From: Subtercola boreus
Lineage (GTDB): Bacteria; Actinomycetota; Actinomycetes; Actinomycetales; Microbacteriaceae
NCBI RefSeq assembly: GCF_003399625.1
Contig: NZ_NBXA01000020.1
Location: forward strand, 62,001 to 126,000
DNA length: 64,000 bases
Direction of reading: 5' to 3'
Part shown: positions 2,975-17,756 of the stretch, piece by piece
Layout of the letters: the number at the start of each line of letters is the position of its first letter
Position numbering within the stretch: position 1 is the stretch's first letter
Notes under the pieces: model-generated
What the model saw: the letters and a program-made list of their open reading frames with translations, nothing else
The model's database searches: none
Told to the model about the DNA's origin: nothing
Position numbers and translations under genes: made by a program

Positions 2975-2989
2975 AGAGTCTTTGGTCCT
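2975..2989 (-). promoter_or_regulatory. DevR/DosR-box-like motif upstream of Usp gene
   Basis: Read on the minus strand the sequence is AGGACCAAAGACTCT. It shares GGACC and GACTCT with the site at 14928 and fits the local pattern GGGACC-N3-GRCNCT with one change at the first base. It lies 77-91 bases upstream of the Usp start at 2898, much like the sites before the genes at 5419 and 16698. The call rests on similarity to the other sites in this window and to the known mycobacterial DosR motif. Confidence 0.45.
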
Positions 2990-3085
2990 GATCTTCCCCC
3001 GCAGAGACAACGGAGGCGCAGTACACTCGCACCACCGGGGTCGCTGTCTCCAGTACGGCGCCTTGGGGGTGCTTTCCCCGATGGC

Positions 3086-3360
3086 GGCCTGGAACAGTTC
3101 ATCAACGTCGGCATGACACCAGGAGACATCCAGACGAGAGGCCACCTCCCGGAGGGTCACGGGCCCGGCGCACTGATCGATGACCCGCGGCCCATCCGGC
3201 TGAAGCGGCTCTCAGACGACGCTCGTACTTCCGGTTTCCCGGCCGGGCACCCGCCGATGGGCAGCTTCCTGGGTGTCCCGGTGCGGGTCGCGGTCGTCGC
3301 GGCGTCGCCAGCGCTGGTCAGCTGCGTCGGCGGAGATCACCTCGGCGCTGCTCCCGTTCG
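3086..3360 (+). pseudogene. remnant of DevS/DosT-like GAF sensor histidine kinase
   Basis: One frame reads LEQFINVGM, then GHLPEGHG, LIDDPRPIRL, then GFPAGHPPMGSFLGVPVRV. This is the conserved core of the first GAF domain of DevS/DosT kinases, the heme-binding domain in mycobacteria. Directly afterwards a different frame reads RRRQRWSAASAEITSALL, which matches the helical linker that precedes the second GAF domain. The tail of GAF1, most of GAF2 and the whole kinase core (dimerisation helix, ATPase) are absent. It has no start codon, a frameshift and large deletions, so it cannot encode a working protein. It precedes the DevR remnant in the same orientation. Confidence 0.75.
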
Positions 3361-3448
3361 TACCGGGCGAGCTTGAGCTGGCAGAGCGTCGCAGGCGGGC
3401 TTCGGTCACAGGTTCGTTCACCGTCGAGTCCGTTCCTGGTCGAACCAT

Positions 3449-3726
3449 GTGCAATTGCCGGATGGGAACGGCGTCGACCTCTGCCGTGACCTGCGGTCGG
3501 AGCATCCGGAACTCCGCTGCTGACGGCATTCGACGACGATAATGTCATCGCCGGAGCCGCCGGATATGTATATGAGAGATATCCGTGGAAGTGGTCTGGT
3601 CGATTCGATCCGGGCTGTGGCGGCCTGGCGGGTTCTGCCGAGAAGACGGTGAAGAACTCTGTCTCCGGCCTGCTCAGCGAGGGCGGGCTGCAACGGCGGA
3701 CCCAGGCGGCGGTCTTCGACCTCGAG
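3449..3726 (+). pseudogene. remnant of DevR/NarL-type response regulator
   Basis: Pieces of one DevR-like protein occur in order but in different frames. [20 protein letters not shown] (from 3455) is the region after the phospho-acceptor aspartate. [20 protein letters not shown] (from 3520) is the switch threonine and beta-5 region. DIRGSGLVDSIRAVAAWRVL (from 3578) is the receiver end and linker. AEKTVKNSVSGLL then QRRTQAAVF (from 3637) is the LuxR-type DNA-binding helix-turn-helix. At least three frameshifts or deletions separate them, and the N-terminal receiver half is missing. With the kinase remnant before it, this is a decayed devS-devR pair. A working copy may exist elsewhere in the genome. 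Confidence 0.8.
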
Positions 3727-3791
3727 ACCCGGTCCCGGGAGCTTCGAGAGGGGCGAGCGTCGCCTGTGAATGGTTCGCCGAGAGCAGACCC

Positions 3792-4478
3792 TCAGAGAAG
3801 TACCGGGACGTTTTCGAATCGACTGTAGAACGAGATCAGGGCTCTCCTGTTGCTTGTAGCGTCTGATCTGACCCAGGGCTGGTCATTCAGGAAAGAATGA
3901 TCTGGGGTGAGGATGACGATTGCCGTCTCGGGTCCGCGGCCGCCCCACCCTGTCTGCTCGCTCAGCACCCTGAAAACGCCGGTAGGCAGCGCCTGACGCA
4001 GGGCCTCGATCATCGCGGCCAGAGCGGGCTCGGGCTGCTCGAACAGGGCGAGCTCGACGCAGTTGCGGGCGGCCAACGCAGCCGCCACGTTCTCGACCAC
4101 CGTTCGGGGGTCGCAGGACGGTGCGCTGACGATCAGGGCGGTGCCGACTGGGCGAGGGGTGCTGATCACCAGCTGGCCGAGGATGACTGCGGTGCTGCTC
4201 TCCCCGAGTTCGGTGGAGGTGTGCGCGAAGCTCTCGAACTCGGCTGCGGCCGTATCGCCATGCAGATTCGTCAGGAGCAGCGAGGCAATCCGCCGAAACG
4301 TCGCCTTGAGGTGACTGGCTGAAGTCTGTCGCCACATTGCTTCTGCGTCCTCCACCTGCGGGAAGAGGGCAGGGAAGGGTGTGACCGGTCGGGGCAGGCT
4401 GGTTTGTTTACGGAGCCGGGTCTCACGCATTGGTCGGAGGTTCGTTGCAGTTGCCATGAAAATGTCCCTCAGTGTCAC
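3792..4478 (-). CDS. uncharacterised protein with faint aldehyde-dehydrogenase-like segment
   Basis: The frame encodes 228 residues from an ATG at 4478 (another in-frame ATG lies seven codons downstream). The middle part, APSCDPRTVVENVAAALAAR followed about 25 residues later by LPTGVFRVL, resembles the cofactor-binding segment of aldehyde dehydrogenases, where a proline-rich loop, AAALAAGN and LPPGVFNVV occur at similar spacing. The protein ends before any catalytic Cys or Glu region, so it cannot be a working dehydrogenase. It may be a decayed or repurposed fragment. It lies 33 bases downstream of the SDR gene and is probably cotranscribed with it. The resemblance was judged by eye only. Confidence 0.45.
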   Translation of the reverse strand: MTLRDIFMATATNLRPMRETRLRKQTSLPRPVTPFPALFPQVEDAEAMWRQTSASHLKATFRRIASLLLTNLHGDTAAAEFESFAHTSTELGESSTAVILGQLVISTPRPVGTALIVSAPSCDPRTVVENVAAALAARNCVELALFEQPEPALAAMIEALRQALPTGVFRVLSEQTGWGGRGPETAIVILTPDHSFLNDQPWVRSDATSNRRALISFYSRFENVPVLL

Positions 4479-4511
4479 GTTCAGATAAGAATTGGAATGT
4501 GCAATGCCCGG

Positions 4512-5246
4512 TCAGGCGTGCGGGATACCGGCAGTGAGACCACCGTCGATGACGAACTCGGAGCCGGTCGAATAGCCCGACTCGTCGCTGGCGAGGAAGA
4601 GCACCAGGTGGGACACCTCGACCGGGTCGGCGGCCCGACCGAGTGGGATCTGCAGTTGCGAGGCAGCTATCCCGGCCGTCATCGGTGTGGTGATGAAACC
4701 GGGGTGGATGGAGTTCACCCGAACGCCGGAAGCGCCGACCTCGACGGCCACGGACTTGGTGAGGCCACGGAGAGCGAATTTCGTGGCGACGTAGGCGTGC
4801 AACCCCGGGCTGCCACGAAGTCCCTCGACGGAGGAGATGTTGATGATCGAACCGCTCTTCTGCTCTACGAGGCTGGGGATCACGGCCTGGATGCCGAGGA
4901 ACGCTCCCGTCAGGTTGATGTCGATCGTCTTCTGCCACTGCGTGAGGGGAAAGTCGGTGATCGGGGCTCCGTTGGCGATGCCGGCGTTGTTCACGAGAAC
5001 ATCGATCCGCCCGAATCGGGTGAGGGTCGTTGTCACTGCAGCAGCCCACTCCGCTGGGTCGGTGACATCGAGGTGAACGTACTCCGCGTGCTGGCCGAGC
5101 TCCGAAGCGAGTGCCTGGCCTTCATCGTCGAGGAGATCGCCGATCACAACGGAAGCGCCTTCGCTGACGAGCAGTCGTGCGTGCGCGGCACCCATGCCGC
5201 GGGCGCCTCCGCTAATGAGGGCGACTTTTCCTGAGACACGATCCAT
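4512..5246 (-). CDS. SDR family oxidoreductase (hydroxysteroid-dehydrogenase-like)
   Basis: The protein has 244 residues from the ATG at 5246, with AGGGG upstream; this start places the Rossmann strand at residue 7, as usual for classical SDRs. Cofactor motif GGARGMGAAHARLL, structural motif NNAG and the catalytic Ser-Tyr-Lys set (INISSVEG, then YVATK) are intact. The C-terminal FVIDGGLTAG is typical of 3-alpha/20-beta-hydroxysteroid-dehydrogenase-like members. The substrate cannot be inferred. A DevR-box-like site at 5319-5333 lies between this gene and the divergent Usp gene and could serve both. Confidence 0.85.
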   Translation of the reverse strand: MDRVSGKVALISGGARGMGAAHARLLVSEGASVVIGDLLDDEGQALASELGQHAEYVHLDVTDPAEWAAAVTTTLTRFGRIDVLVNNAGIANGAPITDFPLTQWQKTIDINLTGAFLGIQAVIPSLVEQKSGSIINISSVEGLRGSPGLHAYVATKFALRGLTKSVAVEVGASGVRVNSIHPGFITTPMTAGIAASQLQIPLGRAADPVEVSHLVLFLASDESGYSTGSEFVIDGGLTAGIPHA

Positions 5247-5318
5247 GACTGACCCCTGCGTTTCTGGCGACGCTCTGCCGACAACGACCATGATGACAAT
5301 TCCCGCGACGAGGCTGAC

Positions 5319-5333
5319 AGGGCCGTTGGTCCC
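5319..5333 (-). promoter_or_regulatory. DevR/DosR-box-like motif between SDR and Usp-SOUL units
   Basis: The plus strand reads AGGGCCGTTGGTCCC; the minus strand reads GGGACCAACGGCCCT. It differs from the site at 16784 only in two of the central bases and keeps both conserved half-site ends. It lies in the 172-bp divergent spacer, 86 bases before the Usp start at 5419 and 73 bases before the SDR start at 5246. Confidence 0.6.
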
Positions 5334-5418
5334 GTCCTGGTCGCTCCTTCGGCGAGGCGGCACGCACGGGTGACTTTGTGCCCTACCTCCAGCAGCACGC
5401 AGGGCGAAGACTCAACAC

Positions 5419-5949
5419 ATGACAAAGACACTCCAGAATGCGGAAGCCCCCGAATCCGTGCGTGCCGTCTCGCCAGCCGGACAGACGGCGGCTATGAGCG
5501 TCCGGATTGGGGCACGAATTCTCGTCGCAATCGACGGGTCCGATCAGAGCATCGATGCTCTTCGGCGTGCCGTCCGCCTCGCGGGTTCCCTGAATGCGCC
5601 CGTCCACGGCGTGATCGTCTGGCGTCCCCCGGTTTCGTTCGGCGGTCTCGCCGACTACGAAGGAGCACCAGAAACAGACGCAGCCAGCTCGATGGAGCAT
5701 GTCGTTACCGCCGTCTTCGGCAACACGACCCCGGAATGGTTCACGCAGTCCGTGATTGAGGGCGTTCCCGCGCATGTACTGGTAGCCCAAAGTGTGGGCT
5801 CGCAGATGCTCATCGTCGGCCATCACGGCAACGGCGGCCTGGCCGATCTGCCCTTGGGTTCCGTGAGCGCCGCATGCGCGCTCCGTGCGCACTGCCCGGT
5901 GCTGATCATGCACGACGTGCGTTCGGCTGGGGCAGCGGAATTCAGCTGA
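5419..5949 (+). CDS. universal stress protein, single UspA domain
   Basis: The protein has 176 residues; the Usp fold starts near residue 35 (ARILVAIDGSDQS) and ends with the ATP-binding signature VGHHGNGGLADLPLGSVS. The first 30 residues are unstructured-looking, and an internal ATG at residue 26 could be the true start. It is followed after four bases by the SOUL-domain gene, which suggests a two-gene operon. A DevR-box-like site is 86 bases upstream. Its Usp part closely resembles the C-terminal domain of the fusion gene at 13020. Confidence 0.85.
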   Translation: MTKTLQNAEAPESVRAVSPAGQTAAMSVRIGARILVAIDGSDQSIDALRRAVRLAGSLNAPVHGVIVWRPPVSFGGLADYEGAPETDAASSMEHVVTAVFGNTTPEWFTQSVIEGVPAHVLVAQSVGSQMLIVGHHGNGGLADLPLGSVSAACALRAHCPVLIMHDVRSAGAAEFS

Positions 5950-5953
5950 CACG

Positions 5954-6523
5954 ATGACCGACCAGCAGCCCTACACGATCGTGCGAGACCACGGCGCCTT
6001 CGAGGTGCGCCGATATCCCGGGCACGTGCTCGTCGAAGTCGAGACAGCAGGCACTTTCGAAACGGCCGGCAATCGCGCTTTCGGCCAACTCTTCAGCTAT
6101 CTGAGGGGCGCGAACCAATCGCGGCAGACGCTGGCCATGACGGCGCCGGTGCTGTCATCTGGCCTGCCGACACGGATCGCGATGACAGCACCAATCGTGC
6201 ACCAAGCAGCGAATGCGGGGCCGGGTGCGACCGGGATGCGGCTCGCTTTCGTTTTACCGGAGGGTTTCACGCCTGAGACGGCCCCGCACCCGACGAATCC
6301 GAACGTGCACCTTCGGGCTGTCGCCCCGTGCGTTGCCGCAGCTCTGCGTTTCAGCGGTCGCTGGAGCACAGCCAACTACGACCAGCACCTCAGAAGATTG
6401 CGGTCAGCGCTCAAAACGGAGGGCCTGACAGCGGTCGGTGAGCCCCGATTCGCGCAATTCGATCCCCCATTCCTGCCGTGGTTCCTGCGTCACAACGAAG
6501 TAGTACTCGACATCAAGGCCTGA
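5954..6523 (+). CDS. SOUL family heme-binding protein
   Basis: The protein has 189 residues. The pattern YTIVRDHGAFEVRRYPGHV, AMTAPV, then IAMTAPI and LPEGFTPETAP is characteristic of the SOUL/HBP family, which binds tetrapyrroles. It is translated four bases after the universal stress gene, so the two are likely made together. This gives a heme protein next to decayed heme-sensor kinase sequences and redox genes. It may buffer or carry heme; that role is inferred. Confidence 0.85.
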   Translation: MTDQQPYTIVRDHGAFEVRRYPGHVLVEVETAGTFETAGNRAFGQLFSYLRGANQSRQTLAMTAPVLSSGLPTRIAMTAPIVHQAANAGPGATGMRLAFVLPEGFTPETAPHPTNPNVHLRAVAPCVAAALRFSGRWSTANYDQHLRRLRSALKTEGLTAVGEPRFAQFDPPFLPWFLRHNEVVLDIKA

Positions 6524-6560
6524 GGCGTGCCTCCGATCCGCGTCTGACGACGGAAGCATC

Positions 6561-7258
6561 ATGGCAACGATGAAAGTATGGGCAACAGACGCACGGAAGC
6601 ACATCATCACGTTGGAAGAGCGGGCTATACCTGATCCAGCGCCCACCGAAGTGCTCGTCGCTGTGCTTGCGTGCGGGGTCTGCCGGTCATCAGGTCGTCG
6701 GACGGGTGACCGCGATTGGCTCAGCCGTGCAGTCGTTACGCGCCGGCGACATCGTGGGAGCTGCGTGGCTGCGCAACACGTGCGGTGTCTGTGCCTGGTG
6801 TCGCACCGGCCGGGAGAACCTGTGCCCGACAGCGGAATTCACGGGCTGGGGGTGGCACACTGGGAATCTACGGCTTCGGTTCGAGCGCCCACCTCACGGC
6901 ACAGATGGCTGTCGCGAACGGAATTCAGGTGTATGCGGTGACCCGCGGTGAAGCAAACCGTGACCTCGTCAGCCAGGCTCTTGCCGCGACGACCCGTGGA
7001 GGCACCGTCGTCATCGCGGGCATCCATCTGTCTGAAATTCCGACGCTCAACTACGAGAACAGCCTCTTCTATGAACGAGACCTCCGGACGGTGACCGCCA
7101 ACACTCGCGCAGACGGAATGGCGTTCCTCCGAATCGCGCGTAACCTCGCCCTCTCTCCCCATATCACCACGTACCCGTTCGGCGCCGTCGACGTGGCGCT
7201 TGACGACCTTCGAAGGGGCAGAGCGTCAGGGTCGCTCGTCATCACCGTCAGCGAGTGA
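6561..7258 (+). pseudogene. broken zinc-dependent alcohol dehydrogenase
   Basis: Three frames hold successive parts of one medium-chain alcohol dehydrogenase. MKVWATDA...ACGVCRS (from 6570) is the N-terminal catalytic domain. [16 protein letters not shown] and [17 protein letters not shown] (6680-6830) are the catalytic His region and the four-Cys structural zinc loop. [15 protein letters not shown] through LVITVSE* (6860-7258) is the NAD domain and C-terminus. About 20, 70 and 20 residues are missing between pieces, including the catalytic segment after CGVC. It starts 37 bases after the SOUL gene and once probably belonged to that operon. An intact adh lies at 11979. Confidence 0.85.
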
Positions 7259-7288
7259 GTCCGGCCCGCCTGTCGGGCGAGCCGGACT
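7258..7288. terminator. hairpin between convergent adh remnant and ald
   Basis: Two 13-base arms (AGTCCGGCCCGCC and GGCGAGCCGGACT, one mismatch) enclose a five-base loop exactly between the stop codons of the two convergent units. There is no clear T-run on either side. It is a plausible bidirectional terminator by position and stability. Confidence 0.5.
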
Positions 7289-7296
7289 GGTCATCG

Positions 7297-8883
7297 TCAG
7301 ACGAAGAAGCCGAGCGGTTCGGGGTCGTGGTTGTCGAGCACGTTCTTCACCTCTTGATAGTTGCGGAGGGTCTGCTGGTCGGTCTCCCGGCCATACCCCG
7401 ACTGCTTGTACCCGCCGAAACCCGCACCGGCCGGGTACTGGTGGTAGGTGTTCACCCAGACCCGGCCGGCACGGATGTCCTGGCTGGCCTTGAAGGTGAT
7501 GTCGGTGTCGCGGCTCCAGACGCCTGATCCGAGCCCGTAGATGGTGTCGTTGGCGATCTGGATGGCGTCGTCGTAGTCCGCGAACGGGGCGACGGTGACG
7601 ACGGGGCCGAAGATCTCCTCCTGGAAGACGCGCATGCTGTTCGAACCCTGGAACACGGTCGGTTCGATGAAGTAGCCGCCGGCCAGGTCGCCGCCGAGTT
7701 CGGCCCTGGCGCCGCCGGCAAGAACTCTGCAGCCCTCCTCGGGCCCGAGGGTGAGGTAGCCCGAGATCTTCTCGAGCTGGTCCGCGCTGTTCTGCGGCCC
7801 CATCTCCGTTTCGGTGTCCAGCGGGTCTCCGACCCTGATTCTCTTTACACGCGACACGGCGTCGTCGAGGAACCCGTTCGTCATGAGGTCTTCCTGTAGC
7901 AGCGCCCGGGAGGGGCAGGAGCAGATCTCGCCCTTGTTCAGCGCGAACATCGTGAAACCCTCGATGGCTTTGCGGTAGTAGTCGTCGTGTTCGCGGGCGA
8001 CGTCGTCGAAGAACAGGTTCGGCGACTTTCCGCCGAGCTCCATTGTCGAGGGGATGATGTTCTTGATCGCGTACTGCATGATCTGCCGGCCCGTCGCAGT
8101 CGACCCGGTGAACGCGACCTTGCCGACGCCTTCGTGTTCGACGAGGTGCTGGCCGAGCTTCGAACCGCTGCCGTTCACCACATTGATCGTGCCCGGTGGC
8201 AGCAGGTCTTCGATGAGTTCCATGACATACAGGATCGAGATCGGTGTGGCGCTCGCGGGCTTCAAGACCACGGTGTTGCCGGCGGCAAGGGCGGGGGCGA
8301 GTTTCCAGGCCGCCATCAGGATGGGGAAGTTCCAGGGGATGATCTGGGCCACCACGCCGATCGGCTCGTAGAAGTGGTACGAGACGAGGTTGTTCGTGAG
8401 CTTCTTGATCGTTCCTTCCTGGGTGCGGATGGCGGCGGCGAAGTACCGGAAGTGGTCGATGGCCAGCGGGATGTCGGCGCCGAGGGTCTCCCGCACGGGT
8501 TTGCCGTTCTCCCACGACTCCATCACCGCGATGTCCTCGAGGTGCTGCTCGAGCCGGTCGGCGATCGCGTTCAGAACGGCGGCGCGTTCGGCTGTCGTTG
8601 TCACCGACCAGGTGCTGAAGGCACGCTGGGCCGACCAGACGGCGAGGTCGACATCGGCGATGCCCGAGTGGGCGTATTCCGCGATCGGCAGCCCGGTCGC
8701 AGGCGCGAGGTCCTCGGCGTACTCGCCGTTGATCGGTTTGACCCAGTCGCCGCCGATGAAGTTCTCGTACCGGCTCTTCAGCGGAACGAGGCTCCCGGCG
8801 GTGCCGGGCCGGGTGTACACGGTGCCGACCCTGCCGGGCGTCAGCACTGCTCGGCCGATTCCGACTTCTTCGAGTAATGTCAT
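7297..8883 (-). CDS. NAD-dependent aldehyde dehydrogenase
   Basis: The protein has 528 residues, slightly longer than the usual 500-510 because of an N-terminal extension ([20 protein letters not shown]) before the [12 protein letters not shown] start typical of the family. [29 protein letters not shown] (general-base Glu near 282) and [12 protein letters not shown] (catalytic Cys near 320) are intact. This is the acetaldehyde/ExaC-like subgroup. It follows pntB by 27 bases and is the last gene of the pntAA-pntAB-pntB-ald operon, which ties aldehyde oxidation to pyridine-nucleotide balance. The divergent alcohol dehydrogenase at 11979 could supply acetaldehyde, and the acetate formed could be activated by Acs (20549). 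Confidence 0.92.
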
Positions 8884-8910
8884 GGCTCTCTTCTTTCTCT
8901 GGGGTTCACG

Positions 8911-10329
8911 TCAGGTGGTGACGTACTGCTTCACAGCAACGGTGATGTCGCCGAGCGCCTTTTTGGCGTCGTCGAAGAGCATCCCGGTCTGCGGGAGGGA
9001 GAACAGTTCGTTCGGGATGCCGGCGTAGCCGGGGCTCATCGAGCGTTTGATGACGACTACGGACTTGGCGTGATCGACGTCGAGGATGGGCATGCCGGAG
9101 ACGGCGTTTCCGGTGCGGCGGGCTGCCGGGTTGGTGACATCGTTCGCGCCGACGACGAGCGCGACGTCGCAGGTATCGAAGGCGGGGTTGGCCTCGTCGA
9201 GTTGCAGCATCTGGCTGTAGGGCACGTTGGCCTCGGCCAGCAGCACATTCATGTGCCCGGGCATCCGGCCGGCGACCGGGTGGATGGCGTACTTCACGTC
9301 GATGCCATGGTCGGTGAGCAGTTTCGCGAGCTCGGCCACCTCGTGCTGGGCTTGGGATGCTGCGAGCCCGTAGCCCGGCACGATGATCACGTGGCGGGCG
9401 TAGGCCAGCTGCAGCCCGACGTCGTCTGCCGTCACCTCTCGAACGTTCGAGGTAGCGGATGCGCCAGTGGTAGCAGCAGTGCTGTCGCCGGTTCCGAAGC
9501 CTCCGAGCATGATCGTGAGTACCGACCGGTTCATGGCCTTGGCCATCTGCAGGGTGAGGATCGTGCCCGCCGCACCGACCAGGGCGCCGGCGATGATCAT
9601 CGCCTGGTTGTCGATCACGAAGCCGGCCATCGCGACAGCGAGCCCGGTCAACGCGTTCAGGAGCGAGACGACAACGGGAGCATCCGCCCCACCGATCGGC
9701 AGAACCATGAGAATGCCGAACAGGAGAGCCGCGACGAGCACGACGAGAAGGAGCGGCCACGACGTGGGCTGAAGGACTGTCAGCGCACCGGCGCTGACAA
9801 CGATGACCACCACAATGACGTTCACGATCCGGGCGCCGGGGAATTGAATCGGCTGGCCGGGGATGAGGCCCTGCAGTTTTCCGGCCGCGATGAGGGAGCC
9901 GGAGAGACTCACCGACCCGATGACGATGTCGAGCACGACCGGAACGCTGACAGAGGGAGTGAGACCGCCCGTCAGGTCCCGGCTGAGGAAGTCGGCGAAT
10001 GCCACCGCTGCTGCGGCCCCGCCGCCCACCGCGTTGAAGAGGCTGACAAGTTGAGGGATGTCAGTCATCTTCACCGACCGCGAGCGTATGACACCGAACG
10101 TGCCGCCGATAACGACACCCGCCACCAGGGCGACCCAGCCGAATGGGTTCGAGTTCGAGCTGACGATGGCGTACAGCAGAGTTCCGCCGACGGCCGTGAC
10201 CATGCCACCGGCAGAGAGGAGGTTTCCGCGCCGTGCGGTTCGAGGGGTTCGCATCTGGTGCAGCCCGATAACGAAGAGCACAGCAGCGGCGAGAAAGAAG
10301 AGTCCGGTGAGGAATGCGAACGGCGTCAT
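8911..10329 (-). CDS. pntB: NAD(P)+ transhydrogenase subunit beta
   Basis: The protein has 472 residues, the normal length for PntB. The first about 270 residues are hydrophobic and form the membrane part of the proton channel (dII), including VSLFNAVGGGAAAAVA. The rest is the soluble NADP-binding domain (dIII), with VIIVPGYGLAASQAQHEVAE and VALVVGANDVTNPAAR. The complex couples proton movement to hydride transfer between NADH and NADP+. The start overlaps the end of pntAB by four bases. Confidence 0.95.
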   Translation of the reverse strand: MTPFAFLTGLFFLAAAVLFVIGLHQMRTPRTARRGNLLSAGGMVTAVGGTLLYAIVSSNSNPFGWVALVAGVVIGGTFGVIRSRSVKMTDIPQLVSLFNAVGGGAAAAVAFADFLSRDLTGGLTPSVSVPVVLDIVIGSVSLSGSLIAAGKLQGLIPGQPIQFPGARIVNVIVVVIVVSAGALTVLQPTSWPLLLVVLVAALLFGILMVLPIGGADAPVVVSLLNALTGLAVAMAGFVIDNQAMIIAGALVGAAGTILTLQMAKAMNRSVLTIMLGGFGTGDSTAATTGASATSNVREVTADDVGLQLAYARHVIIVPGYGLAASQAQHEVAELAKLLTDHGIDVKYAIHPVAGRMPGHMNVLLAEANVPYSQMLQLDEANPAFDTCDVALVVGANDVTNPAARRTGNAVSGMPILDVDHAKSVVVIKRSMSPGYAGIPNELFSLPQTGMLFDDAKKALGDITVAVKQYVTT

Positions 10330-10664
10330 GACAACGTCCCGGGGGTGGTCGCCGGCTCTGCGGAGGCCGGTTTCGACGATCGTGTGGCGGGGGTGAACAT
10401 CCGGAGCATCCGGTCGGTGACGACGTACCCGCCGAAGACGTTGGCTGAGGCGAACAGCGCAGCGACGAACGTGAGAATGTACCCGGCCGGAGTGTTCGCG
10501 GCCGCGCCGATGGCGATTGCCCCGGCGATCACGACACCGTGGATGGCGTTTGCGCCTGACATCATCGGCGTGTGGAGGGTCGAGGGGATCTTGCTGATCA
10601 CCTCGAAGCCGACGAGCAGGCTGAGCACGAAGATGGCCAGGTTGCTGAACAGTGTCTCGGTCAT
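10326..10664 (-). CDS. pntAB: NAD(P)+ transhydrogenase subunit alpha 2 (membrane part)
   Basis: The protein has 112 residues and about three membrane spans. The signature KIPSTLHTPMMSGANAIHG is highly conserved in the membrane segment of the alpha subunit. In actinobacteria and some proteobacteria the alpha subunit is split into PntAA and PntAB, as here. It overlaps pntAA and pntB by four bases each, so the three subunits are translationally coupled. Confidence 0.95.
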   Translation of the reverse strand: MTETLFSNLAIFVLSLLVGFEVISKIPSTLHTPMMSGANAIHGVVIAGAIAIGAAANTPAGYILTFVAALFASANVFGGYVVTDRMLRMFTPATRSSKPASAEPATTPGTLS

Positions 10665-11821
10665 GCGTTCACGCTCTCCTGCGGTTCATGGGCTTGGAGC
10701 CGTGGGTTGATGATGCTGCCGTTGTGACAGATCAGCACGGCGGCATGGATGTCGGTGCTGAGGTCGACCTTGACCTGGTTGTCGGTCACGAAGGAGTCGA
10801 GCAGGGCCTGGATGTTGCGGGCGTACATCGCCGATGCGGAGGTCGGCAGATCGGCAGCCAGATCGCCGGCACCGATCACGCTCACGCCGCCGGCGGTTGT
10901 TACCGTTTGTCGATCGACCGACCCGTGCACGTTGCCGCCGAGACTGCTCGCGGCCAGGTCGATGCACACGGAACCCGGCTTGAGAGCTGCCAGGGTCTCG
11001 GCCGATACCAGCAATGGTGGAGTTCGACCGGGTACTTTCGCCGTGGTGATGATGATGTCGAACGCCACGAGTTCCCCTGCCAATTCGGCCTGCTGTGCAC
11101 TGCTCTCGTCTGCAGTGAGTGCCCTCGCGTAACCGCCGGCGGCAGTGCCTTCGGCGATGCTCGAGGTCAGGAAGCGTGCGCCCAGCGATTCCACCTCACC
11201 GCGGGAAGCGGGTCTGACGTCGTACCCGGTCACGACAGCGCCGAGTCGTCTGGCAGTTCCGATAGCCTGCAGCCCGGCCACTCCCGTGCCGATGACGATG
11301 ACACTCGCGGGCCGTGCCGTGCCCGAGGCGGTGATCATCATCGGCAGGTACCTGCCGAAGTGATCGGCGGCCAGAAGGGACGCCTTGTAGCCGGCGGCGC
11401 TCGCCTGGGAACTGAGCGCATCCATCGACTGCGCACGGCTCAGCGTGCGGGGCAATAATTCGAATGCAGCCGCCGTGACACGTGCAGCAGCAAGCGCCGA
11501 GACCAGCCCGGGGTCGTTCAGGGGGTCGAGCAGACCGAGCAGCAGCTGGCCGGCGTGCAGCTGGGCGACGGTGGTCGCATCGGGCGCGTGAAGCACCGCG
11601 AGCACGTCGCATTGCCCGATGATCTCGGCACGGGTCGCGAGGATCGCCCCGGCCTGCCGGTAGGCGGCATCCGGAAAGCTCGCCTGCTCCCCCGCACCGG
11701 GCTCGACCAGAACGTCCCGGTCTGCGCTCTTCAGCCGTGCGACTGTATCCGGGTCAAGGGCGACTCGTCGCTCTCCGGCCGCTGTTTCTTCCAGGACGCC
11801 GATGGTGATGTTCTTCGTCAT
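10661..11821 (-). CDS. pntAA: NAD(P)+ transhydrogenase subunit alpha 1 (NAD-binding part)
   Basis: I start at the ATG at 11821 (MTKNITIGVLEETAAGERRV, 386 residues); the open frame continues upstream but only through the inverted-repeat regulatory sequence. The N-terminal GERRVALDP is the AlaDH/PNT signature. The Rossmann motif GTGVAGLQAIGTARRLGA is followed by GYDVRP, and ITTAKVPGRTPPLL completes the dI domain. The ribosome binding site is weak. It heads the pnt-ald operon, and paired DevR-box-like sites lie 32-94 bases upstream of its start. Confidence 0.93.
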   Translation of the reverse strand: MTKNITIGVLEETAAGERRVALDPDTVARLKSADRDVLVEPGAGEQASFPDAAYRQAGAILATRAEIIGQCDVLAVLHAPDATTVAQLHAGQLLLGLLDPLNDPGLVSALAAARVTAAAFELLPRTLSRAQSMDALSSQASAAGYKASLLAADHFGRYLPMMITASGTARPASVIVIGTGVAGLQAIGTARRLGAVVTGYDVRPASRGEVESLGARFLTSSIAEGTAAGGYARALTADESSAQQAELAGELVAFDIIITTAKVPGRTPPLLVSAETLAALKPGSVCIDLAASSLGGNVHGSVDRQTVTTAGGVSVIGAGDLAADLPTSASAMYARNIQALLDSFVTDNQVKVDLSTDIHAAVLICHNGSIINPRLQAHEPQESVNA

Positions 11822-11852
11822 ACCCCGAGAGTGCGCCCGTGCGCAGACCCGA

Positions 11853-11915
11853 ACCAGTGCCGAAGGTCCCGTGGCAACACTCGCGCCCACGGCCCGCGGG
11901 ACCTTCGGCACTGGT
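11853..11915. promoter_or_regulatory. inverted pair of DevR-box-like motifs between pntAA and adh
   Basis: A perfect 19-base inverted repeat has its left arm at 11853-11871 and right arm at 11897-11915. Each arm contains a 15-base box GGGACCTTCGGCACT (minus strand at 11856-11870, plus strand at 11898-11912). The box centres are 42 bases apart, about four helical turns, so two dimers could bind on one DNA face. The spacer separates the divergent pnt-ald and adh operons and could coordinate both. Arms this long could also form a cruciform or RNA hairpin. Confidence 0.65.
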
Positions 11916-11978
11916 ACCTGCGGGGCGAGTGCCGCGAGGCTGGTGACATCCCAGCCGCGTCATCAGAAGGGTTCCATT

Positions 11979-12989
11979 ATGAAAGCCGCTGTCGTCACCC
12001 AGTTCGGTTCCCCGCTCGAGATCGAGGACCGTGTCGTTCCGGTACCCGGGGTGGGTGAGGTGCTGATCCGTATGGAGACGTGCGGGCTTTGCCACACCGA
12101 CATCCATGCGGCTCACGGGGACTGGCCCGTGAAGCCGACCGTGCCGTTTATTCCGGGGCACGAGGGTGTCGGCATCGTCGAGGCGCTCGGCGCGAATGTG
12201 ACGGGCAGGGTTGTCGGTGAGCGGGTCGCGATCCCGTGGCTTGGTTTCGCGTGTGGTGAGTGCCGTTACTGCATCGATGGTCGGGAGACGCTCTGTGAGC
12301 AGCAGCAGAACAGCGGTTATTCCGTGAACGGTGCCTTCGCCGAGTATGCCGTCGCCAGCGCCCGCTTCGTGATCCCGGTGCCCGACGGTATCAGCGCTCT
12401 GGATGCGGCTCCGCTGACGTGCGCCGGTGTCACGACCTACAAGGCGTTGAAGGTTGCCGGCATCATCCCCACGGAGACCGTCGCGATCTTCGGCATCGGG
12501 GGTCTCGGTCACCTGGCGGTGCAGTATGGACGCATCATGGGCGGCACGGTGATCGGTGTCGACATCGAAGACGAGAAGCTCGATCTTGCCCGGGAGCTCG
12601 GTGCGGAGTTCACGGTGAACGCTTCGACGGTCGATCCTGTGGCGGCGATCGCGGAGCTCGGCGGTGCGGATGTCGCGGTGGTGCTTGCCGCGTCCCCAAA
12701 GGTCTTCGAGCAGGCGTTCGCCTCGCTGAAGCGTGGTGGGCGCCTGATCTGCGTCGCGCTGCCCGCCGAGGGCACCATGAGTATCCCGATCTTCGAGACC
12801 GTGCTGAAGGGCATCTCGATCATCGGGTCGATCGTCGGGACCCGGCAGGATGTCGCGGAGGTGTTCGCTCTGCACCTGGCGGGCAAGACGCGGGTCATCG
12901 CCCAGACCCGCACGCTGGATCAGGTGAATGCGGCGATGGCTGAGGTGCTCTCGAGCACGGTGCCGGCACGTCTCGTCTTCCAGTTCTGA
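11979..12989 (+). CDS. zinc-dependent alcohol dehydrogenase (AdhP-like)
   Basis: The ATG at 11979 is preceded by AGAAGGG and gives the standard N-terminus MKAAVVTQFGSPLEIEDR (336 residues). Catalytic zinc ligands are in CGLCHTDIH and GHEGVG; the structural zinc loop is CGECRYCIDGRETLC; the NAD-binding motif is GIGGLGHLA. All key residues are present. This is the propanol-preferring/ethanol-active AdhP-type subgroup. It is probably cotranscribed with the flavin-Usp fusion gene 30 bases downstream and shares the DevR-box-like pair with the divergent pnt-ald operon. Alcohol to aldehyde (this gene) to acid (ald) to acyl-CoA (acs, prpE-like) is a complete route within the window. Confidence 0.92.
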   Translation: MKAAVVTQFGSPLEIEDRVVPVPGVGEVLIRMETCGLCHTDIHAAHGDWPVKPTVPFIPGHEGVGIVEALGANVTGRVVGERVAIPWLGFACGECRYCIDGRETLCEQQQNSGYSVNGAFAEYAVASARFVIPVPDGISALDAAPLTCAGVTTYKALKVAGIIPTETVAIFGIGGLGHLAVQYGRIMGGTVIGVDIEDEKLDLARELGAEFTVNASTVDPVAAIAELGGADVAVVLAASPKVFEQAFASLKRGGRLICVALPAEGTMSIPIFETVLKGISIIGSIVGTRQDVAEVFALHLAGKTRVIAQTRTLDQVNAAMAEVLSSTVPARLVFQF

Positions 12990-13019
12990 ATTTTCAACAA
13001 CCACCCAAGGAGAAACACC

Positions 13020-13898
13020 ATGGTCATGACAACAGAGGACTTCGACCAGTGGTCACCGCAGGGCCCGGTCACCGAGCTCTCGGTCGAGCACTGCTGGAAC
13101 CTGCTCGACGGGTCGACCTTCGGCCACCTCGGCGTCAGCGTCGACGACCAACCCGAGATCTTCCCCGTCAACTACGTCGCTGATGGGCGCACGATCGTCT
13201 TCAGGACAGCCCGGGGCACGAAGCTCCGCGAGCTCGTCGCGAACAGCGCGGTCGTGTTCGAGGTCGACGCGCAGCTCGAGAACGGTGCCTGGAGCGTGAC
13301 GGTGAAGGGCGCGGCCGAGATGCTCGGGCCGGACACCCCTGTTCCCGCCGCGGCGGACGTGCTTCTGCCCCGCTGGGTTCCGACCGCAGAGTACCTCTAC
13401 GTACGAATCACTCCCACCGACATCCGGGGCCGCCAGTTCGAGCGGCAGCTCCGCCTGATCGTGCCCCCACGCCCCCGTACCACCCGCGTCGTCGTCGGCC
13501 TCGACGGGTCGGAGGCCTCCCTCGATGCGCTCCGCCGGGCCGTTCTCGTCGCCGAGGGCATCGGCGCAACCGTGCAGACGGTTGTCGCCTGGCACACTCC
13601 GAGCTCCGTCGGTACCTTCGGGTACAGCGACTGGACGGCCGAAGCCGACGCCGAACAGATCCGTGACACGGCAACCGAGACGGTCTTCGGCGACGCCCCG
13701 CCCGACTGGCTCACCCCGACGGTGCGGGAGGGCTACCCCGCCCAGGTGCTCATCGACGAGAGCAGGGGCGCGGAGATGCTGATCGTCGGCAGTCGCGGCC
13801 ACGGCGGGTTCGCGGGCCTCCTTCTCGGCTCCGTGAGCACCGCCTGCGCCGAGCACGCGCACTGCCCCGTGCTCATCATGCACGCCCCCGGCTCATGA
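13020..13898 (+). CDS. fusion of flavin split-barrel (pyridoxamine oxidase-like) and universal stress domain
   Basis: The protein has 292 residues after AAGGAG. Residues 1-140 form a PNPOx-like split barrel: FGHLGVSVDDQPEIFPVNYV, a pattern shared with Rv1155/F420- or flavin-binding proteins. Residues 155-292 form a UspA domain with VVGLDGSEASLDALRR and the complete ATP signature VGSRGHGGFAGLLLGSVS. The Usp half is very similar to the protein encoded at 5419. The fusion suggests cofactor binding coupled to a nucleotide-binding module. It is probably in an operon with adh. Domain identities are clear; the biochemical role is unknown. Confidence 0.88.
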   Translation: MVMTTEDFDQWSPQGPVTELSVEHCWNLLDGSTFGHLGVSVDDQPEIFPVNYVADGRTIVFRTARGTKLRELVANSAVVFEVDAQLENGAWSVTVKGAAEMLGPDTPVPAAADVLLPRWVPTAEYLYVRITPTDIRGRQFERQLRLIVPPRPRTTRVVVGLDGSEASLDALRRAVLVAEGIGATVQTVVAWHTPSSVGTFGYSDWTAEADAEQIRDTATETVFGDAPPDWLTPTVREGYPAQVLIDESRGAEMLIVGSRGHGGFAGLLLGSVSTACAEHAHCPVLIMHAPGS

Positions 13899-13915
13899 CC
13901 GCGCCCCGAGAACGA

Positions 13916-14893
13916 TCAGTCGTCTGCCGGAGCGTTCGATTCCGGCGGAATGACGACCACCGGGCAGGTGGCGTGGGCCGCGCACTCGGTGCTCACCGAG
14001 CCGAGGAGGAGCCCGGCGAAGCCGCCGTGGCCGCGGGAGCCCAGAACGAGGAGCCGTGCGTGAGCCGACCGGGCGAGCAGTTCCGATGCGGGCTGTGAGA
14101 GTGCCGCCCGGTGGGTGACCACGACGGCGGGATGACTGGTGAGGAAGACTGCGGTCTCTGCGACGAGATCGCGCTGCACTCGCGCCGTGACCTCGTCGAA
14201 GGAGGGAACGGAGCCGAATTCCTCGCTGAATTGGCGGGGAATGCGGTCGATGCTCCAGGTGCGCACGATCTCGACCCCGCAGCCGAGATCCTCCGCTGCC
14301 CTCAGCGCCCACTGCAGAGCCCTGTCGGCATTCATCGATCCGTCGTGCCCGACGACGACCACGTCGCGTTCGCCAGGCTGCGGTTCGGCATCCGTTCTGC
14401 TGCCGTGACCCGTCGCCGCGCGGGGTGCGTGGAAGACGGCGACGGGGCAGTGGGCATGCTCCGCGCACTGGCTGCTGACCGACCCGAGCAGAAGGCCGGC
14501 GAAGCCGCCGAGACCCCGGCTGCCCACGACGAGGAGTTCGGCCGTCGCGCTCTCGCCGATCAGCACGCGTGCCGCCGATCCCTCGACGACCTGCTGCTCG
14601 TAGCCGTCCGGAGGGGTGTCGCCGAATACTTCCCGGATGGCAGCCGAGAGTCGGCCCTCGGCGTCTTCCCGCGGCGAGAACGTTCCGGGGAACGGGCTGT
14701 ACGAGATCGGGTAGGCCCAGGTGATCAGCGCGCGGAGGGCCAGCCCCCGCCTCCCGGCCAGTTCGCCGGCGTAGCGGAGCGCCTCGACCGACGAGGGTGA
14801 GCCGTCGACACCGACGACGATGCGTGCGGGTCCTGGTGCGGGTGCGGATGCGGATGCGGGTGCGGATGCTGTTCCGGGTGCTGTGGTGTCCAT
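13916..14893 (-). CDS. universal stress protein, two UspA domains
   Basis: The protein has 325 residues. An Ala/Pro/Ser-rich leader of about 20 residues, encoded by imperfect hexamer repeats (14820-14880), precedes two complete Usp domains. Both carry full ATP-binding signatures: VGSRGLGGFAGLLLGSVSSQ near residue 140 and LGSRGHGGFAGLLLGSVSTE near 290. A DevR-box-like site lies 35-49 bases upstream of the start, inside the end of the upstream ABC ATPase gene. The gene follows that ATPase by three bases, so it may be both the last gene of the ABC operon and separately induced. Confidence 0.9.
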   Translation of the reverse strand: MDTTAPGTASAPASASAPAPGPARIVVGVDGSPSSVEALRYAGELAGRRGLALRALITWAYPISYSPFPGTFSPREDAEGRLSAAIREVFGDTPPDGYEQQVVEGSAARVLIGESATAELLVVGSRGLGGFAGLLLGSVSSQCAEHAHCPVAVFHAPRAATGHGSRTDAEPQPGERDVVVVGHDGSMNADRALQWALRAAEDLGCGVEIVRTWSIDRIPRQFSEEFGSVPSFDEVTARVQRDLVAETAVFLTSHPAVVVTHRAALSQPASELLARSAHARLLVLGSRGHGGFAGLLLGSVSTECAAHATCPVVVIPPESNAPADD

Positions 14894-14896
14894 GGC

Positions 14897-15631
14897 TCAA
14901 GCGTCCGCTGTCACCGCCTCGCCGGCCAGAGTCGAAGGTCCCGGAGCCCCCTGGCGGGTCGCAACTCCGTCCACCATCAGGTACGACGTGTCGAAGCGGT
15001 GCAGCTGCTGCTCGTCGTGGGTCACCAACACGGTCGCCGTGTTCTGCTCGATCGTCAGCCGGGTGATGAGGTTCAGGATGCTCGTTCCGCGCGCCTGGTC
15101 CAGGGAACTGGTGGGTTCGTCGATGACGAGCACGGTCGGGTCGTTCATGAGCGCGCGGGCGATGTTGACGCGTTGGCGCTCTCCTCCGGAGAGCATCGCC
15201 GGCATCCTGTCCGCCTGCCGTTCGACCCCGACGGCGGCCAGGAGATCCATCGCATGGGATCGGCCGTGTCTGCGCGATCCCGACCTCTGCCGTCCGGATC
15301 CCAGCCGCTCCATCACCAGCAGCTGCTCGAGCGAGGTCAGCGCAGGCAGCAGGTTCGACTGCTGGAAGACGATTCCGAGGTGATCCCGGCGGAGCGCCGC
15401 ACGCTCGGCGGGTGAAAGCGCGGTCACTTCGACGTCATCGATGCGTACCGACCCGGAGTCTGGCCGGATGAGCGTGGAGATGACCGCCAGCAGGCTCGAC
15501 TTGCCCGAGCCCGACGGGCCGGTGATGCCGACCACGCTCCCCCGGCTGATGGTGAGTGACACGCTGTCGACGGCGACGATCCGGCTGGCCCCGTCGGGGT
15601 AGGTCAGCGTGACGTTCTCGAGCGTGATCAT
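14897..15631 (-). CDS. ABC transporter ATP-binding protein (MacB/LolD-like)
   Basis: I start at the ATG at 15631 (MITLENVTLTYPDGASRIVA, 244 residues), which overlaps the permease stop by four bases. Walker A GPSGSGKSS, signature MLSGGERQRVNIARAL, Walker B VLVIDEPTSS and the H-loop VTHDEQQ are intact. The sequence class is that of MacB/LolD ATPases, which pair with FtsX-type permeases and move lipoproteins, peptides or small molecules using force across the membrane. The partner permease is directly upstream. The substrate is unknown. Confidence 0.9.
   Translation of the reverse strand: MITLENVTLTYPDGASRIVAVDSVSLTISRGSVVGITGPSGSGKSSLLAVISTLIRPDSGSVRIDDVEVTALSPAERAALRRDHLGIVFQQSNLLPALTSLEQLLVMERLGSGRQRSGSRRHGRSHAMDLLAAVGVERQADRMPAMLSGGERQRVNIARALMNDPTVLVIDEPTSSLDQARGTSILNLITRLTIEQNTATVLVTHDEQQLHRFDTSYLMVDGVATRQGAPGPSTLAGEAVTADA
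14928..14942 (-). promoter_or_regulatory. DevR/DosR-box-like motif before Usp gene
   Basis: The minus strand reads GGGACCTTCGACTCT, matching the local pattern GGGACC-N3-GRCNCT. It lies within the last codons of the ABC ATPase gene, 35-49 bases upstream of the Usp start at 14893. That spacing fits activation of a short-leader or leaderless transcript. Confidence 0.5.
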
Positions 15632-16698
15632 CGGTTGCTTCCCAGCGCGGTGAGGGGGTCGGCTCGCGTCACCGAACGAAGAGCGAAAGCGGCGCCCAGC
15701 AGTCCGAGAGCGATCATCGCCACGGCCGGGACCAGGGTGGTGTACCAGGCGAGGATGAACGGCAGAACACTGCCGACGACGGCTCCGAAGCCGGCGGTGG
15801 CGCCGATGCCGACTCCCACCCCGACGACGAGCACGAGGGCCGCCTCGCCGAGCGAGTCGGTGACGAGCATCCGGTTGGAGGCACCCAGGGCCTTCAGGAT
15901 GGCGACGTCGGGCTGTCGTTGCATGCCCCACACGGTGAAGAACGCACCCACGACGAGCGCCGAGATCCCGAACAGCATCGCGACCATGAGCAGCAGGGAT
16001 CCGATCTCCGAGCGAAAGGCGGAGAGCGCCGTCAACGAGCCGAACGGGGTCTGGGAGGTGGTACCGGTCGCTGTGTCGGCCGACGAGAAACCGGCGTCTG
16101 TGCCGTCGACCGCGAGCACGGTGGAGAAGGCACCGGGGTTGCCGGAGGCGCCGGCGCTGGATTGCCAGTCGACCAGTGAGACCCAGGCGACGGCCGTGTG
16201 GGAGTACCAGGTGTCTGCTGTGACGGCGTCGACGACGTATCCGGCGCCTGCCAGAGTGACGGTGTCCCCCACCGCGGCGTGCAGGGTCGACGCAGCCGTC
16301 GCCGGCAGGGTGATGTGGCCGGTCTCTCTCGGCACAGCCGAGCCGAACGACGTGTCGGCGCCGAAGAGGGCGACCGCCACCTGCCGGGAACCCGAGTGGA
16401 GCCGGGTCTGGCTGATACCGACAGGATGCACGGAGCTGATACCGGGAGCCGCCGACCAGGTCGCCGCCTGTGCCGCGGTGATCGTCGAGTCCGAATAGCT
16501 CAGACTGCTGCCGTCGGCCGGAAGAGAGAAGACAATGCGATCTGCGGGCAGTGCCAGCACCGCCGAGATGTTCTGGTTGGCCAGCCCCGCGGTGAGGCCT
16601 GCGAGAAACCCGACGAGCAGGGTGATGAGGGCGACGACCGAGGCGATCAGGATGAATCGGCCCCGGGCGAACCTCAGGTCGCGGAGTGCGACATACAT
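15628..16698 (-). CDS. FtsX-like ABC transporter permease
   Basis: The ATG at 16698 (MYVALRDLRFARGRFILIA) gives 356 residues. One membrane span lies near residues 16-40, then a large extracytoplasmic domain (about 45-230), then three spans near 245-350 (LLLMVAMLFGISALVVGAFF and following). This is the MacB/FtsX layout. It forms a four-base overlap with the ATPase gene. A perfect DevR-box-like site lies 86-100 bases upstream, so the exporter may belong to the stress regulon. Confidence 0.87.
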   Translation of the reverse strand: MYVALRDLRFARGRFILIASVVALITLLVGFLAGLTAGLANQNISAVLALPADRIVFSLPADGSSLSYSDSTITAAQAATWSAAPGISSVHPVGISQTRLHSGSRQVAVALFGADTSFGSAVPRETGHITLPATAASTLHAAVGDTVTLAGAGYVVDAVTADTWYSHTAVAWVSLVDWQSSAGASGNPGAFSTVLAVDGTDAGFSSADTATGTTSQTPFGSLTALSAFRSEIGSLLLMVAMLFGISALVVGAFFTVWGMQRQPDVAILKALGASNRMLVTDSLGEAALVLVVGVGVGIGATAGFGAVVGSVLPFILAWYTTLVPAVAMIALGLLGAAFALRSVTRADPLTALGSNR

Positions 16699-16783
16699 TC
16701 GAACAGGCCCTCCCTCATGACGGACGCCATGCCTCCAGCGAGGAGTGCGTGCATCAACGATGCTGCAGACCGGTTCGCTGCGG

Positions 16784-16798
16784 AGGGCCGAAGGTCCC
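16784..16798 (-). promoter_or_regulatory. DevR/DosR-box-like motif before ABC exporter operon
   Basis: The minus strand reads GGGACCTTCGGCCCT; both half-sites match the local consensus best of all sites seen. It lies in the intergenic space upstream of the permease start at 16698, at 86-100 bases, nearly the same offset as the sites upstream of 2898 and 5419. Confidence 0.6.
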
Positions 16799-16884: not shown

Positions 16885-17756
16885 TCAGGGTATGAGCGAG
16901 AGGCGCCGCGCCGCGATCACGGCCTCGTACCGGCTGGCCGCGCCGAGCTTGCGCATGGCCGACGCGAGGTAGCTCTTCACCGTGCTCTCCCGCAGCCCGA
17001 GCTGGCCCGCGATGAGACCGTTCCGCTTTCCGAGGGCGACACCCGCCAGCACGTCGAGTTCGCGCGGGGAGAGTTCCGGACGGGTTCCGGATGCATCGCT
17101 CCCCACGACCGGCTCCGACCGCGTTCGCGCGCCGAGGTTCTGCCCGAGCGCATCGAGGCGGGTGGAGAGGGCACGGTCGTCCACGGTTCTGGAGAGGGAA
17201 CGGAGTTCGGCGTAGAGTTCCCGCAGCTCGTCGCGCTCCTGCTGGCCAGGCGGGTCTGCAGCACGAGGCCACCCTCGGTCTCGAGAACGGCGAGGCGCCG
17301 TTCGACCTCGTCGTGCACGGAGTACTCGAATCCGAGCGCTGTCGCCAGGGCCAGCGAGGTGCGGATGACGGGGTCGCCGAGCTGCGTCGCGGTGCGGTGT
17401 GCGCCGTAGACGACGGCCCGGACCGACCCGTTCACCACCACGGGAACGGCGAGCAGGCAGACGATCTGCTCGGCGAGCACTTCGCGGTCGTAACGGTGCG
17501 TGATCGCCGGCGAACCCCGGTACTGGGTCGCCGTCACGGGGCGCCGCTCCGCGATGGCGCGGCCGCCGAGGCCCTCTGTGGGCTCGATGATCAGGCCGTT
17601 CAACGTGCTGCCGCGCGTGCCGACGAAGGCCGTCAGGGGCGCGCCGTCCTTCGTGACGAGGCCGCCGAAGGCGAGGGGGAACTCCGCCCGCAGCGTCAGC
17701 GACTTCAGCGTCTTCTGCAGGAGTTCGAGGTCGTGAGCGGCCGTGCCGATACTCAT
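16885..17756 (-). pseudogene. GAF-LuxR transcriptional regulator, frameshifted
   Basis: The gene starts at 17756 behind a strong AAAGGAGG site. The first frame encodes a GAF-type sensor domain (residues 1-165, with IIEPTEGLGGRAIAERRPVT and LLAVPVVVNGSVRAVVYGAH). Near 17235-17255, just after VLQTRLA, the protein-like sequence jumps frame and continues as GQQERDELRELYAELRSLSR, then the LuxR helix-turn-helix LSPRELDVLAGVALGKRNG and RESTVKSYLASAMRKLGA, ending at 16885. A single-base change would restore one protein of about 290 residues. It could be a true mutation, a sequencing error or, less likely, programmed. It lies between the ABC exporter and the acid-activation operon and may have regulated either. 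Confidence 0.75.

Follow-up and report, generated by a model that had tools for sequence, protein, structure and literature searches.

A predicted DevR/OsdR-type regulon with start-codon-locked promoters in Subtercola boreus and other Microbacteriaceae

Main finding

We analysed a 64,000-nucleotide stretch of the genome of Subtercola boreus (Microbacteriaceae), hereafter the window, which comprises positions 62,001 to 126,000 of contig NZ_NBXA01000020.1 (C20:62001-126000; other contigs are likewise given as C with a number) in an assembly of 4.12 Mb and 95 contigs. The window carries six sites of a 15-base motif upstream of stress and redox genes, and we propose, with a probability of roughly 0.9, that a phosphorylated response regulator of the DevR/OsdR type binds there and activates low-oxygen or dormancy genes from promoters with a start-codon-locked layout. 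The sites, their clustering in the genome, a fixed spacing to a −10 hexamer, a 34-nucleotide (nt) lock to the ATG and the co-occurrence with devR were all observed in the sequence.

The sites in the window and in the genome

The six 15-mers listed in the first-pass annotation were all found on the strands indicated there, at window positions 2975, 5319, 11856, 11898, 14928 and 16784, and its estimate that they stand 32-100 bases before start codons agrees with the measured distances (76, 72/85, 34, 66, 34 and 85 nt). Site AGGACCAAAGACTCT (2975..2989, minus strand) lies 76 nt from the ATG at 2898 of a universal stress protein (usp) gene, with a predicted −10 hexamer at 2952-2947, while GGGACCAACGGCCCT (5319..5333, minus strand) lies 72 nt from the ATG at 5246 of a short-chain dehydrogenase (SDR) gene and 85 nt from that of a divergent usp at 5419, its predicted −10 hexamer (5295-5290) being oriented to the SDR gene. 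The sequence GGGACCTTCGGCACT is present twice, once on the minus strand (11856..11870; exactly 34 nt from the pntAa ATG at 11821; predicted −10 hexamer 11833-11828) and once on the plus strand (11898..11912; 66 nt from the ATG of an alcohol dehydrogenase gene, adh, at 11979; predicted −10 hexamer 11936-11941). The two remaining sites, both on the minus strand, are GGGACCTTCGACTCT (14928..14942), exactly 34 nt from a usp ATG at 14893 and with a predicted −10 hexamer at 14905-14900, and GGGACCTTCGGCCCT (16784..16798), 85 nt from the ATG at 16698 of an FtsX-type permease gene and with a predicted −10 hexamer at 16762-16757.

Exact matches of the common core proposed at that stage, GGGACCNNNGRCNCT, number 5 in the window, where 0.23 would be expected; none of 100 shuffles reached this number. 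The tightened pattern RGGACYWWHGRCHCT has 6 matches against 0.01 expected; it was tightened on these very sites, and independent tests are provided by other genomes only. The core was not enriched in the window when two mismatches were allowed (58 matches against 88.8 expected), and therefore the signal lies in the near-exact sites only. The polysaccharide half of the window, beyond position 17000, was indeed devoid of comparable sites, as a visual scan had suggested: with a weight matrix built on 17 sites, themselves scoring 18.6-24.2, the sole matches there with a score of at least 6 scored 9.3 and 6.1.

Across the genome, RGGACYWWHGRCHCT gave 25 matches and its backward control none, while the core GGGACCNNNGRCNCT was noisy when used alone (17 matches against 9 for its backward control). 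Three islands hold 23 of the 25 sites, namely C20:48.8-78.8k (10 sites), C26:484-513k (8) and C53:4-27k (5), and the other two are C1:118832 and C48:13920. Paralogues are shared between the islands, with identities of 84% for SDR, 70% for PntB, 73% for PntAb and 77% for a P-type ATPase, and the remaining island parts encode Usp, P-type ATPase, DUF1003, BON, SDR, transhydrogenase and GAF-ANTAR proteins (Pfam). Judged by position, usp and nitroreductase genes are among the putative box-linked targets.

Occurrence of the motif in other genomes

We searched 297 genomes of the order, in 72 of which devR was found (a match at E <= 1e-60); the genome of S. boreus itself was excluded from the comparison. 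The loose core was uninformative at this scale, with matches in 266 of the 297 genomes and control counts that were often as high or higher (untallied), and was replaced by a W/W/H-restricted core. The pattern GGGACCWWHGRCHCT was present in 47 of 71 genomes with devR (104 matches) vs 40 of 225 without it (47 matches; Fisher p 6e-14), while its backward control did not differ between the two groups (23/71 vs 66/225; p 0.66). In 80 devR loci (1.48 Mb in total, most of about 20 kb), we detected 23 matches in 19 loci and none for the control; a set of 3.6-kb devR loci, the flanks of which were too short, gave 4 matches in 30 loci and no control matches. The first-pass annotation had named equal frequency in coding sequence as the outcome that would speak against the motif. 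This outcome was not seen in the 80 loci, where 5 of the 23 matches lay in the interiors of open reading frames (ORFs), which cover 78% of the sequence according to a GC-based gene caller.

Box direction and spacing to the −10 hexamer

The box reads as directional, with the GGGACC half distal and the GRCNCT half facing the gene. On the gene side of the first set of sites from S. boreus, an A at +24 and a T at +28 were present exactly in 10 of 17 sites and within one base in 16 of 17, against a background mean of 0.93 exact pairs per offset. In the full set from this genome, ANNNT occurred at 24 ± 1 in 20 of 25 sites, and all six window boxes have it 23-25 nt past the box. The same pair was found in the 80-loci set (21 of 29 sites exact, 25 of 29 within one base), and the spacing was kept at 38 of 60 sites from genomes with devR vs 6 of 30 from genomes without it (p 1.2e-4). 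The 60 sites come from 21 genomes chosen among those with matches, favouring multiple matches (60 of 67 matches became loci), and the 30 sites from 31 of the 40 match-bearing genomes without devR (30 of 36 matches); the 80-loci set and the set from genomes with devR have one site in common (92 unique of 93). On the non-gene side, no peak was present at that distance in the S. boreus set, the 80-loci set or the set from genomes with devR, and a peak of 5 of 30 at offset 25 (mean 0.85) in the sites from genomes without devR is probably due to chance.

ANNNT is described in PMC6448022 as the mycobacterial −10 element. Because an ANNNT −10 stands at this distance, the box would span about −49 to −35, with the −10 hexamer approximately 22 nt beyond the box.

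The 34-nt lock and predicted leaderless transcripts

At 9 of the 25 sites in S. boreus, upstream of pnt, nitroreductase, usp and other genes, an ATG stands exactly 34 nt past the box, in 8 cases together with the −10; the background is about 0.005 per offset, and every other offset has at most one ATG. In the window, the pntAa (11821) and usp (14893) genes follow this arrangement and are predicted to yield leaderless mRNAs. The nitroreductase frame at the beginning of the window (38..1063, plus strand) has an upstream ATG at C20:61864, 34 nt past a box at C20:61815, approximately 185 bases before the window start. The same distance was found in 7 of 92 sites of other genomes (p 2e-5). Among the starts that could be assigned by eye (18 starts of the 25 sites), a Shine-Dalgarno-like 4-mer at −16 to −4 preceded none of the 9 locked starts vs 6 of the 9 others.

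The composite GGGACYWWHGRCHCT-N34-ATG was present in 47 of 398 Microbacteriaceae genomes, its backward control in none of the 398, and it occurred in 45 of 136 genomes with devR vs 2 of 262 without it (p 2e-21), or 38 of 129 vs 2 of 258 when the genus Subtercola was left out. Within the genus, devR is found in 7 of 11 genomes, and the composite in these same 7 and no others. The genome of S. boreus contains most copies (9), the next one 7. The 55 listed composite matches from other genera (40 genomes) have A24 in 44 and T28 in 53 cases, neither of which is required by the pattern; Shine-Dalgarno-like 4-mers precede 11 of these 55 starts, showing that the complete lack at the 9 starts in S. boreus is not universal. 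Behind the composite, 31 frames in 30 loci were considered, of which 20 were scanned, leaving out 8 of under 60 codons and 3 longer ones; the proteins comprised 9 Usp, 3 BON, 3 pyridoxamine-oxidase-like proteins, 1 phosphoketolase, 1 multicopper oxidase and 3 that matched no family (Pfam).

In M. tuberculosis, a DosR site overlapping the −35 lies 34 bp upstream of a mapped transcript start, at what is called the "canonical distance" (PMC5360333; the end from which this is counted is not stated there), and the proximal DosR box is described as overlapping the −35 (PMC3029386). With T28 at −7, the transcript would start on the A of the locked ATG, and since this ATG stands 34 nt past the box, the distance reported between site and transcript start in M. 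tuberculosis, leaderless mRNAs are predicted. Much of the DevR dormancy regulon of the Microbacteriaceae is probably leaderless, with the box directing transcription to begin at the A of the start codon and box, −10 and ATG forming a rigid 52-nt cassette. Among the papers listed in our searches, we found in titles and the beginnings of abstracts no account of leaderless DosR/DevR targets, and mycobacterial cases may stand in tables.

The lock could also have arisen by copying of whole promoters along with their genes, without any leaderless start, as paralogous genes are common to the islands and the same genus repeats some promoters. On the other hand, the sequences between box and ATG have little more in common than A24, T28 and a C that is frequent at 34, the lock precedes unrelated genes (usp, pnt, nitroreductase, BON and phosphoketolase genes), and Shine-Dalgarno-like sequences are divided between locked and other starts as described above. 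On these grounds whole-promoter duplication was rejected as the sole cause, and we consider this origin of the lock improbable.

The putative regulator and its kinase

The C53 island encodes a response regulator of 214 amino acids, the best match of which in the PDB is M. tuberculosis DevR (3c3w; E 3.6e-70, aligned over residues 1-213 without gaps), with identical residues at D8, D9, D54, T82, K104, K179, K182 and N183. For T82, K104, K179 and N183, we presume roles in phosphorylation or DNA contact. D54 is reported as the phosphorylation site of DevR (PMC3029386) and K182 as a DNA-binding lysine (PMC5999986). The adjoining kinase (582 amino acids) has a GAF-GAF-HisKA_3-HATPase architecture (Pfam), and its first GAF domain matches 2vzw (4e-43) and DevS 2y8h (3e-39) and retains His154 in an HPPM motif. 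This histidine we take to be the haem ligand. A second intact devR, 66% identical, is found on C26 behind an interrupted devS.

Based on these features, we propose that phosphorylated DevR encoded on C53, with the second intact copy on C26, would bind the boxes of usp, nitroreductase, transhydrogenase, dehydrogenase and ion-pump genes in the three related islands. Because the box lies directly upstream of the ANNNT −10 hexamer, DevR would be placed at about −42, where it could take the place of a −35 element and recruit RNA polymerase (class II activation). At 9 of the 25 sites, the transcript would begin at the A of the ATG or next to it and be leaderless, with the distance locked at 34 nt. 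DevR binding, activation, the transcript starts and an oxygen or redox signal are what we infer from the arrangement.

Weighing the evidence and alternative explanations

Several observations weigh against this reading. GGGACCWWHGRCHCT is absent from 24 of the 71 genomes with devR and has at least one match in 40 of the 225 without it, 61 of the 80 devR loci have no match within the flanks examined, and 91 of the 136 Microbacteriaceae genomes with devR lack the locked composite; the 34-nt lock is frequent, not universal. In the 60 sites from genomes with devR, an ATG at 34 nt occurs 3 times, vs 4 times each at 52 and 56 nt, and in the 80-loci set 34 nt ties with 26 nt. The −10 is missing at 22 of these 60 sites and at 5 of the 25 in S. 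boreus, including the locked site C26:501016, and 8 of the 31 frames after a locked ATG are shorter than 60 codons. Site C1:118832 is situated within a Big_9/fn3 (Ig-type) repeat gene and yet has a −10, both of which are presumably due to chance. The p-values are optimistic, since related genomes do not count as independent and the 34-nt offset was tested on the S. boreus genome only after it had been spotted. In M. marinum, leaderless starts are reported at 38.4% in hypoxia and 39.8% in air (PMC8022548), which argues against a general hypoxic leaderless programme.

The regulatory genes themselves add to these points. The window's own devS-devR pair is a relic situated between usp and the next gene: tblastn detected a remnant of the devS GAF domain in two broken frames (3051..3353, plus strand; its main piece shares 58 of 77 residues with the intact C53 kinase), which is presumed non-functional, and a devR remnant in broken frames (3449..3735, plus strand) with a partial receiver and an end that includes the recognition helix (28 of 33 identical). 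In the C26 copy, an in-frame TAG (C26:509181-509183) interrupts the first GAF domain of devS; beyond it the frame is open and devR is intact, and the codon may be real or a sequencing error. On C53 and C26, a box separates a two-domain usp gene from the divergent devS, and in the window it separates usp from the relic; each of these boxes points to usp, and autoregulation is not clearly seen. The relic and the interrupted devSR copy suggest that the regulatory module was multiplied and then partly lost, the target boxes staying in place.

It could be argued that the window island is a dead copy with unused boxes and that the live regulon is confined to the C53 island, for which the decayed devSR genes of the window and the TAG in the C26 kinase would speak. 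We regard this as unlikely, as two intact devR genes elsewhere can act in trans, the six window boxes all keep their ANNNT, and the reading frames downstream of them are open.

Still less probable is that the boxes are read by another regulator of the NarL/LuxR family and that DevR co-occurs only through a common lifestyle. The genome is rich in related regulators, with 33 stretches (some of them pieces) that match DevR at E <= 0.001, a LuxR-type frame lies near the last window box, and the devR signal is one of co-occurrence. However, the box sequence is that of the published DosR/OsdR box, the DNA-contact residues of DevR are kept, the motif and the composite track devR at E <= 1e-60, and beyond the second devR the next regulator of the genome is 42% identical. 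That the boxes are GC-rich chance matches or conserved non-regulatory repeats, as the weak genome-wide excess of the loose core and its lack of enrichment with two mismatches might suggest, is highly improbable and is contradicted by the 25 matches of the tightened pattern vs none for its control, by the clustering, and by the −10 and ATG spacing, the composite and the devR association in other genomes.

Comparison with known systems

The first-pass annotation had likened the motif to the mycobacterial DosR box. This likeness is borne out by the sequence, which is near or identical to published DosR and OsdR sites, by the DevR-type regulator and kinase in the genome and by the co-occurrence of the motif with devR. 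The DosR consensus is given as GGGACTTNNGNCCCT (PMC6448022), and sites of OsdR include AGGGACCTTCGGCCCC and CGGGACCTTCGGCCCT (PMC5069765, Table 1). Compared with the stringent mycobacterial consensus, the Subtercola box has C or T at position 6 instead of T, W at position 7, and a free position 13.

The mycobacterial DevR/DosR system is similar in its DevR-type regulator, its DevS/DosT-type GAF kinase, and its usp and Acg-like nitroreductase genes, as well as in its promoters, for which a proximal box overlapping the −35 (PMC3029386), an ANNNT −10 (PMC6448022) and one 34-bp case (PMC5360333) are described. The Subtercola regulon, by contrast, is spread over three islands, of which one holds an intact devSR pair, one an interrupted pair and one a relic. 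For 9 of the 25 Subtercola sites, leaderless transcripts are predicted.

OsdR (SCO0204) of Streptomyces coelicolor has the same GGGACCTTCGGCCC core at SCO0167 (usp), SCO0216 (narG2) and SCO5979 according to PMC5069765, and is likewise surrounded by a usp-rich region, with nitroreductase and alcohol dehydrogenase genes among its predicted targets. In contrast, its consensus AGGGCCGATCGGCCCT is more symmetrical and it occurs in another family, while in Subtercola the boxes are present at pnt and adh; the start-codon lock was examined in Subtercola and its relatives. The system matches a DevR/OsdR regulon in its regulator, kinase, target classes and promoter geometry, and appears to be of a known kind in another lineage. 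Among the papers listed in our searches, we found in titles and the beginnings of abstracts no account of such a regulon in Microbacteriaceae, Arthrobacter, Cryobacterium, Leifsonia or Rathayibacter, and PMC12919924 yielded no promoter geometry.

Genes of the window island and further observations

The usp gene behind the first box encodes a protein with two Usp domains (2059..2898, minus strand; Pfam PF00582). The SDR gene (4512..5246, minus strand; Pfam), the product of which is 84% identical to the copy in the C53 island, is followed by genes for a universal stress protein (5419..5949) and a SOUL haem-binding protein (5954..6523), both on the plus strand and assigned by Pfam. The transhydrogenase unit on the minus strand comprises the alpha subunit PntAa (10661..11821; PF01262/PF05222), a small membrane subunit that is PntAb by position (10326..10664; 73% identity to its C53 counterpart) and the beta subunit (8911..10329; PF02233), with an aldehyde dehydrogenase gene downstream on the same strand (7297..8883; Pfam). 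The zinc alcohol dehydrogenase gene adh (11979..12989, plus strand; PF08240/PF00107) is followed by a fusion of pyridoxamine-oxidase-like and Usp domains (13020..13898, plus strand; PF12900 and PF00582). On the minus strand are a second protein with two Usp domains (13916..14893; Pfam), an ABC transporter ATPase (14897..15931; PF00005) and the FtsX-type ABC permease (15628..16698; PF02687, scanned from 16770); the ATPase probably starts lower than 15931, because the listed frame overlaps the permease gene. Over about 90 residues, the nitroreductase-like protein partially matches Acg (2ymv; E 2.5e-9). Two overlapping plus-strand frames at 6561-7258 resemble, by eye, a broken zinc alcohol dehydrogenase gene, and a frame with a LuxR-type helix-turn-helix (HTH) at 16915-17229 (minus strand) lies directly upstream of the ABC/FtsX unit.

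Outside the window, the box at C48:13920 lies upstream of a further pntA-like gene, from which it faces away, with an acetate-kinase-like gene nearby (both by eye). Two T6-type boxes, C26:484243 and C26:484622, are about 17 kb from the other C26 sites and could not be matched to a gene; a cytochrome-oxidase-like frame is nearby (by eye). Weaker sites, GTGACCAAAGACCCT, are found at C20:48861 and C26:512744, each with the −10 spacing and beside a primary box in the opposite orientation, and possibly serve the divergent gene. The good box at C53:12082 has a correctly spaced −10 and no ORF of at least 80 amino acids starting within about 200 nt downstream, and its product might be a short ORF or a small RNA, such as the DosR-driven DrrS of M. 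tuberculosis. The C26 island also contains a pyridoxal-dependent decarboxylase gene adjoining that of an amino-acid permease (C26:513847-516863), a pair that in our view resembles a glutamate decarboxylase/antiporter pair.

Significance

Overall, low-oxygen regulons of the DevR/OsdR type, characterised in Mycobacterium and Streptomyces, would extend to the Microbacteriaceae as a third actinobacterial lineage, with a promoter grammar of box, direction, −10 and start that is legible from the sequence. The 34-nt lock leads to a concrete prediction, that of leaderless dormancy mRNAs, and to a search string, box-N34-ATG, with 0 control matches in 398 genomes. Leaderless mRNAs have been reported to increase in starved M. 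tuberculosis (PMC3898074). If the prediction is true, the dormancy genes of these bacteria would bypass Shine-Dalgarno initiation and use a route that becomes more frequent when M. tuberculosis is starved and not growing, and the role of leaderless translation in the expression of dormancy genes would become directly testable.

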